This document shows, piece after piece, positions 1-30,130 of a DNA stretch of 33,812 nucleotides. Within the stretch, counting starts at the first letter, position 1. Each line of letters opens with the position of its first letter. A program made the translations under genes and the position numbers. The DNA lies in the NCBI GenBank assembly GCA_023265105.1, contig JAHFUJ010000006.1, positions 11,505-45,316 of the forward strand, read 5' to 3'. This DNA comes from Acidobacteriota bacterium. GTDB taxonomy: Bacteria > Acidobacteriota > Vicinamibacteria > Vicinamibacterales > CAVVIG01. Below the pieces are notes generated by a model that made no database searches, was not told the DNA's origin, and saw only the letters and a program-made list of their open reading frames with translations.

Positions 1-629
1 AGCCGGACCTGGCGCAGAATCCGGCCGACCGCGCCGATCAAATTGTCCACGACGGCGTCGGCAACCAACCCGTCCGGCGGTCGCGCTTCCTCGGTCAGCC
101 CGTATCCGGTTCTGACGAGGATGCTCTGCGCGCCGACCGCTCGCGCCAACGCGACGTCGAGCCACCGATCGCCGACCACGAACGACCGCGTCGGGTCGAT
201 GCCGAGCTCGAGCGCCGCGCGATCGACCAGACCGCGGCCGGGCTTTCGGCAGTCACAGTGCTGGGCGTATCCCTGGACCTTGCCGTCGGGATGGTGCGGA
301 CAATAGTAATACGCGTCGATGTGGGCGCCACCCGCCTCGAGCATCGACGCGATATGACGGTGCACCGCTTCAACCACCGACTCGGAAAAGAATCCGCGCG
401 CGACGCCCGACTGGTTCGTCGCCATTACCACGCGCAAGCCCGCCCGATTGAGCGCGCGCACGGCGTCGACCGTCCAGGGATAGAAGGCGACACGCTCGAT
501 GCGATCGAGGTACCCGACTTCTTCGATGATCGTCCCATCGCGGTCGAGGAACACGGCGCACGACGCGCCTCGAAGGGCCTGCCCCGAGCCGTGTCGAGGG
601 GCCTGCTCTGAGCCGTGTCGAAGAGTCAC
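1..629 (-). CDS. gmhB: D-glycero-beta-D-manno-heptose 1,7-bisphosphate 7-phosphatase (HAD family), 3' end beyond window
   Basis: Removes the C7 phosphate from heptose 1,7-bisphosphate in cytoplasmic ADP-heptose synthesis, the donor used by WaaF. The minus-strand frame shows HAD motif I AVFLDRDGTI, motif II around VVMATNQSGVARGFF, the zinc-loop pattern CPHHP...CDCRKP, and the late motif FVVGDRWLDVALA. The start is a GTG at 629-627 that overlaps the waaF stop (GTGA), so translation is probably coupled. No ATG lies between it and motif I. The first 24 or so residues are encoded by a family of dispersed repeat and read as two related RHGS(E/G)QA units, so the natural N-terminus is odd. No stop is reached before base 1; the last bases (agccggacct) look like the edge of another dispersed palindrome. 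Family assignment is secure; the exact start is less so. Confidence 0.88.
   Translation of the reverse strand, partial: MTLRHGSEQAPRHGSGQALRGASCAVFLDRDGTIIEEVGYLDRIERVAFYPWTVDAVRALNRAGLRVVMATNQSGVARGFFSESVVEAVHRHIASMLEAGGAHIDAYYYCPHHPDGKVQGYAQHCDCRKPGRGLVDRAALELGIDPTRSFVVGDRWLDVALARAVGAQSILVRTGYGLTEEARPPDGLVADAVVDNLIGAVGRILRQVR
573..625. repeat. Dispersed repeat forming the 5' coding end of gmhB
   Basis: Two related units, each a GGGCCTGC(C/T)C(C/T)GAGCCGTGTCGA-like stretch, lie back to back just inside the gmhB start. The motif resembles the CCCTGAGC...GTCGAAGGG sequence after tRNA-Leu (10898-10931). It is part of the gmhB reading frame rather than an untranslated spacer. Confidence 0.55.
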
Positions 630-1741
630 AACGTCCGCCGGGCCGCGGCGAGCACGGCGTCGACGCCGATGCCTCGCATGCAGCGGTGATCGAGCGGGCA
701 CTCGCGCAACCCGCACGGCCGGCACCACACGGGATGCGTCAGCACAGTCGGCATCAAGAGGTCCGGCTGAAGCCGGACGCCACGTACCGTCGCCTCGTGG
801 TCTGGCTCAAGCCGGACGCCACGACGGTTGATATGGTACGTGGCGTCCGCCTTCAGGCGGACCTCTCCGCGTGGTCCGGTCACCCGCTCGTCGGTCGGAC
901 CGAACACCGCCGTGACGCTCACGCCGAGCGCGGCCGCCAGGTGCGTCGCGCCGGAATCGTTCCCCACAAGCGCGTGGCAGTTGACCAGTACACCGGCCAG
1001 CGCCGGCAGGTCGTTGCCAATCAAATTGAACACCGGCGAGCCCGAAGCTCGCGCCGCCAGGATCTGTTGCCCGGCAGGTGCGTCAGCCACGCTGCCGACC
1101 AGCACGACGGCCATCCCGTCGCCCACGAGCGCCTGCGCGAGCTCCGCAAACGACGCCGCCGGCCATCGTTTCGCACCGCCGTACGCGGCACCGGGGGCGA
1201 GCGCGACGAGCGGAGCGCGTTGGTCCCATCCGGCATCGCTGAGGGCCCGCCGACCGGCATCACCGAAGTGGGCCGAGACGTCGAGCCGCGGCACGACCGG
1301 CCCGTTGGGAAAGCCGAGCGCGTGGACCAGCTGCTGGTAGTAGTCCACCTGATGCACGCCCACCGGCGCGCGATCGACGCCGCGCGTCAACAACGGACCG
1401 CGCCACTCGGTGCGATACCCCCACCGCTCTGGAATGCCGGCGCGCTGGGCCATCAGCGCGGCATGAAACGAATTTGGCAAGAGCAACGCCGCCTCAAACG
1501 GCTTTCCCCGCAGCTCGGCGCCCAGGTCTCGCCACGCCGCGACACCGGGTGCCTGGCGTCTGGGTTCGAGGGGGATGACGTCGTTCACGTCGCCGACCAT
1601 GCTGAAGAACGGCGCGAGCGGCCGCCGCGCTGCAACCGTGATTGACGTGTCGCGCGAGGCACGGCGCAGGTCCGCGATCGCGGGCAGCGCCATGACGGCG
1701 TCGCCCAGCCAGTTCGGCGCGACCACGAGAAGATGATTCAT
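626..1741 (-). CDS. waaF: Lipopolysaccharide heptosyltransferase II (GT9), with repeat-derived in-frame insert
   Basis: Transfers heptose from ADP-heptose to the LPS inner core at the cytoplasmic face of the inner membrane. The N-terminus LLVVAPNWLGDAVMALPAI is the typical WaaF start, and GNDSGATHLAAALG followed by AVFGPTDERV is the GT9 donor-binding region. The conserved tail HPVWCRPCGLRECPLDHRCM is present. Between the FGPTDE block and that tail lie about 40 extra residues (about 293-332) coded by three copies of the dispersed palindrome (bases 746-865); ordinary family members have only a short loop there. The ATG overlaps the acyltransferase stop by 4 bases and the stop overlaps the gmhB GTG by 3. 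The frame is intact, so I call it a gene and not a pseudogene, but activity with the insert is unproven. Confidence 0.92.
   Translation of the reverse strand: MNHLLVVAPNWLGDAVMALPAIADLRRASRDTSITVAARRPLAPFFSMVGDVNDVIPLEPRRQAPGVAAWRDLGAELRGKPFEAALLLPNSFHAALMAQRAGIPERWGYRTEWRGPLLTRGVDRAPVGVHQVDYYQQLVHALGFPNGPVVPRLDVSAHFGDAGRRALSDAGWDQRAPLVALAPGAAYGGAKRWPAASFAELAQALVGDGMAVVLVGSVADAPAGQQILAARASGSPVFNLIGNDLPALAGVLVNCHALVGNDSGATHLAAALGVSVTAVFGPTDERVTGPRGEVRLKADATYHINRRGVRLEPDHEATVRGVRLQPDLLMPTVLTHPVWCRPCGLRECPLDHRCMRGIGVDAVLAAARRTL
746..865. repeat. Three dispersed palindromes inserted in the waaF reading frame
   Basis: Copies at 761-778 (GTCCGGCTGAAGCCGGAC), 800-817 (GTCTGGCTCAAGCCGGAC) and 845-862 (GTCCGCCTTCAGGCGGAC), the last in the opposite orientation to judge by its gtacgtggc flank. 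The same element recurs at 8824, 17890, 17913, 25695, 25761 and 30110. Here the insert length is a multiple of three and carries no stop in the waaF frame, giving VRLKADATY- and VRLEPD-like peptides. Confidence 0.9.
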
Positions 1742-2700
1742 GCCTGCTCTTCGACGTCGTGCTCCGCGGAAGGGAACATGCCGGGCACCGCGTCGGTCGA
1801 TGGCCCGACGTCACGCCAGCGGCGGTGCATCCACAGCCACAGATCGGGGTGGCGCCGGACGTACATCTCGAGCACGTCGGTGCACCGCTGTGTGAACTCG
1901 CGGATCCCGGCGTCGGCATCGGGGCCGGCGCGCGGCGGCTCGACCGGATGCTCGTAGATCATACGATACCGTCCACCGCCGACCGGCAGCGCGAACACCG
2001 GCACGACCGGCGCGCCGGTCCGGAGCGCAAGCGCGGCGAGGGCGGAGGTCGTGGCCGCGGGCCGTTCGAAGAAGTCGACGTAGATCGCGTCACGGCTCTG
2101 GATGTGCTGGTCGATGAGGACGGCAACGCCGTGTCGCGCCTGCAGCATCCGCATCACGCGCCGGATGGTGCCTTGCCGGTAGATGACGGTGTTTCCCGTG
2201 CGCTGGCGAATCCGCTCGAGGATCGCGTTGAGATCGGCGTTGTCGAGCGCGCGGGCGAGCACGCCAATCGGCTCGAACCGCAGTGCGTGGACGATCGCGT
2301 GCAGCTCCCAGAACCCGAAGTGGCCGGTGAAGAAGAGCACGCCCTTGCCCTGCGCGTACGCAAGGCGCGCGCGCTCCTCGCCGTCGAACTCGACGCGCGC
2401 CAGCATCGCCTCGGGCGACAGCGTGCCGAATTTCAGAAGCTCGAACAGCAGGCGGCCGAAATGCGCGAACGCCCCCCGGACAATCGCGCCGCGCTCGTCG
2501 GCCGAGCGCACCGGAAACGCCGCGGCCAGGTTCCGCTCCGCGATGCGCCGATGCGCCCGGTCGAACGTGTAGAACGCCAGGCCGAGCACGCTTCCGCATC
2601 GGCGGACCAGGGGGTCCGGCATGACGCGCACGACCGCGACCAGCGTTTGGACGGCGAGCGATTCGGTTTGGACGGCGAGCGATTCGAGTTTATGTCTCAC
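1738..2700 (-). CDS. Lipid A biosynthesis acyltransferase (LpxL/LpxM/HtrB family)
   Basis: Adds a secondary acyl chain to Kdo-lipid A at the inner membrane. The H(X4)E catalytic motif is HFGFWE at residues 127-132, preceded by GKGVLFFTG; later blocks (LIDQH, FFERPAATTSALAALALRTGAPVVPVFA) fit the family. Length (320 aa) is normal. The assigned start is a GTG at 2700 with no clear Shine-Dalgarno, because an iterated GGGTTCN array fills the space upstream. Residues 6-12 and 13-19 are an exact duplication (ESLAVQT), from a 21-bp tandem repeat. The stop overlaps the waaF ATG by 4 bases. Which acyl position or chain it uses cannot be told from the sequence. Confidence 0.9.
   Translation of the reverse strand: MRHKLESLAVQTESLAVQTLVAVVRVMPDPLVRRCGSVLGLAFYTFDRAHRRIAERNLAAAFPVRSADERGAIVRGAFAHFGRLLFELLKFGTLSPEAMLARVEFDGEERARLAYAQGKGVLFFTGHFGFWELHAIVHALRFEPIGVLARALDNADLNAILERIRQRTGNTVIYRQGTIRRVMRMLQARHGVAVLIDQHIQSRDAIYVDFFERPAATTSALAALALRTGAPVVPVFALPVGGGRYRMIYEHPVEPPRAGPDADAGIREFTQRCTDVLEMYVRRHPDLWLWMHRRWRDVGPSTDAVPGMFPSAEHDVEEQA
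2646..2687. repeat. 21-bp tandem duplication in the acyltransferase N-terminus
   Basis: Two adjacent copies of tttggacggcgagcgattcg plus one base, differing only in that last base. Being 21 bp, it adds seven residues without disturbing the frame; probably a recent slippage duplication. Confidence 0.9.
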
Positions 2701-2705
2701 GCGAC

Positions 2706-2787
2706 GGATTCAGGGTTCCGGGTTCAGGGTTCCGGGTTCTCGGTTCTAGGTTCTGGGTTTGGTTCAGGATTCGGGGTTCGAGGTTCG
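2706..2787. repeat. Iterated-word array, twelve GGGTTCN-type words of mostly 7 nt
   Basis: Consecutive words read GGATTCA, GGGTTCC, GGGTTCA, GGGTTCC, GGGTTCT, CGGTTCT, AGGTTCT, GGGTTT, GGTTCA, GGATTCG, GGGTTCG, AGGTTCG. The last position varies and the core is nearly fixed. Unlike the other four arrays it has no inverted partner here. It fills the lpxK-acyltransferase junction and supplies the last 21 codons of lpxK, including its stop. Confidence 0.85.
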
Positions 2788-8816: not shown

Positions 8817-8845
8817 ACGTGGCGTCCGGCTTCAGCCGGACCATT
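8817..8845. repeat. Dispersed palindrome 3' of secG
   Basis: GTCCGGCTTCAGCCGGAC at 8824-8841 with a 5' acgtggc flank: an inverted copy of the VRLKPDATY-type element. It sits 15 bases after the secG stop and could act as a transcript-end hairpin, though no T-run follows. Confidence 0.85.
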
Positions 8846-17889: not shown

Positions 17890-17930
17890 GTCCGGCTCGA
17901 GCCGGCGTCATGGTCCGGCTAGAGCCGGAT
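17890..17930. repeat. Two dispersed palindromes in the MmgE-TolB spacer
   Basis: GTCCGGCTCGAGCCGG (17890-17905) and GTCCGGCTAGAGCCGGAT (17913-17930). The loops are CGAG and TAGA-like variants of the common TGAA. They lie just upstream of the MmgE/PrpD start, inside the presumed transcript. Confidence 0.85.
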
Positions 17931-25677: not shown

Positions 25678-25939
25678 CGGTCCGGCGAAGAACGGTCCGG
25701 CTCTAGCCGGACACTACGTACAGAATCGCAGGGCTGAAGTCCTGCGCCACGCCACGAACGGTCCGGCTGAAGCCGGACACGACGTACAGACTCGCGGGGC
25801 AAAAGAGCGTGTGAAAAAATGCGACGTGTTAGCGCAGAGCACGCAGAGCTCGCCGAGAATCCTTAGAATTTTCTTCTCCGCGGCCTCGGCGGTCTCGGCG
25901 GTTAGCGGTTTCTTCACAGGCTCTAACGTCCTACGCCAC
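25678..25939. repeat. Repeat-filled spacer between TolC-like and adaptor genes
   Basis: Two dispersed palindromes, GTCCGGCTCTAGCCGGAC (25695-25712) and GTCCGGCTGAAGCCGGAC (25761-25778), each followed by an ACNACGTACAGA flank, 66 bp apart. Between them is a separate hairpin CGCAGG (25727-25732)/CCTGCG (25741-25746). From about 25846 to 25918 a different dispersed sequence runs (ctccgcggcctcggcggtctc type). An open frame crosses all this, but it is repeat sequence and not protein-like. Confidence 0.8.
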
Positions 25940-30101: not shown

Positions 30102-30130
30102 AACGTGGCGTCCGCCTTCAGGCGGACCAT
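30102..30130. repeat. Dispersed palindrome after the RND pump, variant stem
   Basis: GTCCGCCTTCAGGCGGAC at 30110-30127, preceded by aacgtggc. The stem has G-C swapped at two paired positions relative to the commoner GTCCGGC form and still pairs fully. It lies between convergent genes and may serve as their shared transcript end. Confidence 0.85.

Follow-up and report, generated by a model that had tools for sequence, protein, structure and literature searches.

An in-frame cluster of RAYT-type REP elements in the heptosyltransferase gene waaF of an Acidobacteriota bacterium

Introduction

How does a conserved gene of lipopolysaccharide (LPS) synthesis come to contain three palindromic repeats and still read as one open frame? 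The question is posed by waaF, within the 33,812-nucleotide stretch analysed here (the window), from the genome of a soil Acidobacteriota bacterium. An original prediction, made from the letters of the window alone, held that REP-like elements are inserted in frame in this gene, within an otherwise family-like protein that may carry a surface loop of repeat origin. REPs of the class tied to RAYT transposases begin with a GT(A/G)G head, after which comes a GC-rich palindrome whose short centre is non-complementary (Nunvar 2010, PMC2817692); REPs lying in frame within genes of several species, at sites suggested to be flexible linkers or loops, are described in the main text of a later study (Di Nocera 2013, PMC3733652). 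We consider it very probable that a three-unit cluster of RAYT-type REPs was inserted in waaF with the frame kept, that it is tolerated as a probably disordered loop by an enzyme that still works, and that a RAYT is the likely mover.

Results

The waaF product scores 177 bits against the heptosyltransferase II model TIGR02195 (cut-off 134.6). The gene lies in a run of LPS genes with gmhB, a lipid A acyltransferase gene and lpxK; gmhB comes after waaF in the same order as in relatives, and the genome holds only one close WaaF match, its remaining GT9 matches being distant. The frame is unbroken across the whole ORF, and the three palindromes within it belong to a high-copy family, in agreement with the in-frame REP-like elements that had been proposed (Table 1). 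Together they form a composite that encodes the stop-free stretch EVRLKADATYHINRRGVRLEPDHEATVRGVRLQPDL, flanked by FGPTDERVTGPRG and LMPTVLTHPVWCRPC and polar in character (15 of its 36 residues are charged or His). The insert was rightly placed in waaF ahead of the Cys tail, but the extent first given, 746-865, is wider than the precise composite, and the repeat-derived stretch, although of similar size, is 36 residues long and not about 40. Palindromes A and C form inverted arms of 32 nt that are 94% complementary. A REPIN is a pair of inverted REPs that moves as a unit; A and C are inverted in this sense, but the recurrent layout is one of three units, and clusters range from 1 to 8 units. 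Since the three-unit layout recurs on contigs 133, 434 and 418 of the same genome (85% identity over 107 nt with the cluster on contig 133), the waaF cluster probably arrived as one composite.

Table 1. Positions, within the window, of waaF, its REP composite and the conserved tail
Feature	Position	Strand	Description	Basis
waaF	626-1741	minus	ADP-heptose:LPS heptosyltransferase II, 371 aa, with insert	TIGR02195, PF01075, structural match 1psw
Composite of three REP elements	758-865	minus	108 nt = 36 codons, WaaF residues 293-328	coordinates and translation
REP palindrome A	761-778		head GTACGTGGC on minus strand, up to about 787	exact match to GTCCGSCTNNAGSCGGAC
REP palindrome B	800-817		one mismatch; orientation as A	palindrome match and alignment
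REP palindrome C	845-862		inverted relative to A; head GTACGTGGC immediately before, on plus strand	exact match to GTCCGSCTNNAGSCGGAC
Conserved four-Cys WaaF tail	680-724	minus	insert lies just before it	54-sequence alignment

The palindrome GTCCGSCTNNAGSCGGAC occurs in 449 exact copies in this genome and at 525 sites with at most one mismatch, against 0 and 3, respectively, for reversed controls, which rules out chance palindromes. A search with window 700-900 gave 103 BLAST matches at E <= 0.001. Exact copies were found in 33 of the 60 genomes searched, unevenly distributed (589 in G014, 0 in many). From the 176 orientable of 187 sites we derived the consensus GTACGTRGYGTCCGSCTTNAGSCGGACCGT, with G, T, R and G at positions -5 to -2 (each present in 98% or more of the oriented sites) and one extra Y before the palindrome. 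A GT(A/G)G head, a GC-rich palindrome and a high, scattered copy number are the features of RAYT-associated REPs. Further copies lie in the window at 8824-8841, 17890-17930, 25695-25778 and 30110-30127, none of which was scored as an open in-frame insertion. In another Acidobacteria metagenome-assembled genome (L082:5033-5050) waaF has one REP at its 3' end, across which the frame stays open, so that the C-terminal tail of the protein derives from the repeat.

Three Y1 transposase genes were found in this genome. The one on contig 36 encodes a REP-associated tyrosine transposase (NF047646, 93.8 bits; cut-off 80) and has arrays of the same REP within 700 nt on both sides, five copies to the left and six to the right, in opposite orientation beside the gene; the other two lack such REPs. 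The stop codon of the contig 36 gene falls inside a REP palindrome (L010:1938-1955), and RAYTs related to it, in G014, G022 and G038, likewise end in ...SG. Of the 23 Y1 genes examined, 5 have two or more copies of this REP no further than 700 nt away (in this genome, G014, G022, G038 and G001), and these five cluster on the tree, with 2 changes against a shuffled mean of 4.7 (0 of 500 shuffles as low). The contig 36 RAYT is thus the probable mover of the REPs. Some genomes speak against a strict link: G026 has 189 exact REP sites and four Y1 genes that were examined, none of them flanked, and G012 and G013, with 51 and 38 exact sites, gave no PF01797 match; in such REP-rich genomes a RAYT may act in trans, be absent from the draft assemblies, or share its role.

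The repeat accounts for an unusual length of the WaaF loop between the FGPT motif and the REC of the tail, which spans 69 residues in this genome. Among 80 relatives taken from genome_contigs it spans 32-39 residues in 79 and 43 in the sole same-genus genome. Adding 36 residues to the common 33-residue loop gives 69, so that the composite alone explains the difference. All 29 relatives of a separate, partly overlapping alignment have short loops. An insert common to the whole family was ruled out, because in 22 of 26 other family genomes the WaaF alignment breaks at the insert (of the others, one gave no match and three gave distant GT9 paralogues). It had been set out beforehand that relatives with an insert of equal length and unrelated sequence would speak against a repeat origin; no such insert was found in the 80 relatives, none of which has one of the same length.

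REPs are typical assembly break points. As the genome is a draft of 452 contigs, 79.7% complete, the insert could in principle be an artefact of short reads wrongly extended across a repeat. This we regard as very unlikely, because the two flanks of the repeat belong to one gene and are correctly ordered and in frame, because gmhB comes next, as it does in relatives, and because half a repeat stands at this codon in a separately assembled sister genome (see below). In so fragmented an assembly, only the unit count might yet be wrong.

Is the gene alive? A large insert in a conserved enzyme with a single close match in the genome is what a decaying pseudogene might look like, and an untranslated gene was the other condition under which the original prediction was to fall. 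Relative to the same-genus gene, however, waaF has a dN of 0.143 and a dS of 0.56 (dN/dS about 0.26), and 24 lineage-specific residue changes are counted against 28 in the sister (outgroup G003), with no excess. The frame is open, the conserved cysteines are present, and no sign of decay or of a lack of translation was seen. The gene thus looks functional and, judged by these substitutions, under purifying selection; the pseudogene reading is rejected on the dN/dS and the change counts, and we hold decay in this strain to be extremely improbable.

The AlphaFold2 model of WaaF (54-sequence alignment) has a mean pLDDT of 88.9 and a pTM of 0.88, and its best structural match is 1psw, E. coli heptosyltransferase II (E 3.5e-25). 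The pLDDT falls below 50 at residues 301-305, 310-312 and 314-324, much of the insert. The proposal of a surface loop of repeat origin, for which structure prediction had been suggested, thus fits the model: the insert is probably a disordered external loop that leaves the enzyme working. In the same alignment C340, C343, C348 and C354 of the C-terminal tail are invariant, and fold matches of the model include the iron-containing TibC heptosyltransferases. TibC binds its iron through cysteines.

As RNA, the insert is predicted to fold into a hairpin of -84 kcal/mol (z -6.98; 0 of 200 shuffles as stable), and so strong an mRNA structure might slow or hinder translation. The cluster could then be mainly an RNA or DNA element, acting in translation attenuation, mRNA stability or polarity between waaF and the overlapping gmhB, whose open frame merely had to be preserved; most REPs lie outside genes, and many are regarded as RNA elements (PMC3733652). 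Against this, clusters of this REP family occur in mixed gene contexts, the half-repeat of the sister species forms no hairpin (z 1.07), the other relatives lack the insert, and no terminator-like site was found at the insert. We consider such a role unlikely as the main explanation, and a role of the repeat as a terminator was rejected for want of such a site.

The sister genome of the same genus (G001) bears on the age of the insertion. Following the same waaF codon it has GAGGTCCGCCTGAAGG, half a REP, with 14 exact REP bases. Compared with REP consensus sequences, its loop scores 28, a value reached by 0 of 200 shuffles, the next best among the other 79 relatives being 21. Half a repeat at the same codon means that the insertion may predate the species split. 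The simplest reading of the two sequences is one insertion before the split, followed by gain or loss of units; alternatively, the half-repeat could represent a pre-existing REP-like target beside which REPs inserted.

Other genes carry repeats of the family as well. By a codon-usage score, 15 of 82 REP clusters sampled in this genome are candidates for in-frame insertion, with an uninterrupted frame and coding flanks to the left and right (a non-random set drawn from the BLAST matches to window 700-900 and the first palindrome sites, about 0.58 Mb including the window), three of these matches being doubtful (L183, beside a masked stretch; L143, probably a chance single site; L186, with a doubtful frame). 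The automatic rule did not flag waaF, probably owing to the small number of codons beyond the insert. Genes named by family models include ileS, uppP, mutL, maf, nagA and the genes of a transglycosylase, an aminotransferase and a DUF488 protein; comparison with relatives covered uppP, maf and nagA, while ileS, mutL and the others are named by family models only. The cleanest comparison is that of uppP, in which the repeat-derived stretch is extra with respect to relatives. In maf and nagA it lies in loops that vary among relatives too, some of which have other repeat-like stretches. The Maf loop of G011 (L215) contains a different duplicated peptide, APHARELF twice, which suggests that this loop collects repeats. 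In an independent genome, G014, 5 of 30 REP clusters were flagged in-frame, including lnt, thrC and valS by NCBIfam; for one of the five, on contig 20, the strand was called wrongly, and the actual gene there is maf.

The peptides read from in-frame REPs use at least three frames (VRLKPDATY, GPAKAGRHV and VVSGFSRT types), and any one of the six frames is free of stops in 10 to 20 of 24 REP variants, so that translation through a REP is easy. Same-strand pairs of coding flanks were in frame in 7/11, 3/4, 14/20, 11/15, 14/25 or 11/21 cases, according to the threshold, against an expected share of one third (p 0.0009 to 0.11). Because significance depends on the threshold, and because neighbouring genes occur among the same-strand pairs, we take the excess as supportive only. 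Judging from these genes, the same REP family has entered other conserved genes in frame, and such insertion is peculiar neither to waaF nor to genes of LPS synthesis. The description of the locus as repeat-to-protein conversion in a core LPS gene is supported for the in-frame insert, as read from the sequence, though not as a trait particular to this gene or class of genes.

Repeats of other kinds are found in the neighbours of waaF. The start of gmhB (window 577-629, minus strand; VTLRHGSEQAPRHGSGQALRGASCAVFLDRDG) consists of two copies of a CTTCGACACGGCTCAGAGCAGGC-type repeat, a single exact copy of which occupies the corresponding gmhB position in G003; allowing up to 2 mismatches, the pattern recurs at 9 sites of this genome. 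An exact 21-nt tandem duplication (window 2645-2686, minus strand) gives rise to ESLAVQTESLAVQT at the N-terminus of the lipid A acyltransferase, and the C-terminal tail of lpxK, NPEPNPEPRTENPEP, is partly encoded by 14-nt GGGTTC-type repeats (window 2705-2783). Four adjacent LPS genes thus each have repeat-derived coding ends or inserts.

Discussion

The preferred explanation may be put as a sequence of steps. A REP cluster would have inserted between two codons of waaF, where the protein has a loop of naturally variable length just upstream of the conserved CRPC...REC..H.CM tail. With its 108 nt and no stop in the frame used, it left waaF as one open frame, which would now encode 36 extra, mostly polar residues, probably as a disordered external loop. 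Movement would have been due to the RAYT of contig 36, whose gene is flanked by arrays of this REP, and selection would have retained the insert as tolerable, not as useful.

A broader reading, to which we give slightly less than an even chance, is that, in this family, conserved and probably essential enzymes continue to receive translated peptides in their loops from a RAYT-REP system, with three or more reading frames in use, and that the waaF insert is old, preceding the species split, and then gained or lost units in a living gene. If so, the lineage would offer a natural series of repeat-to-protein conversion. The waaF case appears unusually complete, since the element is known together with a probable transposase, with sites both filled and nearly empty, and with further cases in two genomes. 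Through the half-repeat of the sister species, it can be tested how a non-coding mobile repeat joins a working protein and then changes. Moreover, one repeat family with a probable transposase is present in several conserved genes of a group for which no report of in-frame REPs was found in the main texts of open-licence papers; six peptide strings of these repeats occurred in no paper of the open-licence literature searched. The main text of Di Nocera 2013 (PMC3733652) contains neither heptosyl nor lipopolysaccharide, and names Acidobacteria once, for RAYT transposases of other species.

Since in-frame intragenic REPs and the palindromic elements of Rickettsia (RPEs) have already been published, the waaF case belongs to a known phenomenon. 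The enzyme shares family and fold with E. coli WaaF/RfaF (1psw) but differs from it in the 36-residue repeat-derived loop and in the conserved C-terminal Cys cluster, which is absent from the aligned stretch of the E. coli protein. The repeats resemble GTAG-type REP/RAYT systems (PMC2817692, PMC3733652) in the GT(A/G)G head, the GC-rich palindrome, the high copy number and a RAYT flanked on both sides, and in that some copies are intragenic, in frame and encode tens of residues; they differ from the published ones in host group and REP sequence. RPEs, of about 100-150 bp, are the classic in-frame case, and one enzyme has been shown to work with its insert, according to two reviews (PMC2229807, PMC10969869). 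Like the repeat in waaF, they are palindromic, lie in frame in conserved genes and are tolerated; unlike RPEs, which are described as having a conserved encoded peptide in one frame, the REP family of waaF is read in several frames, at least three.
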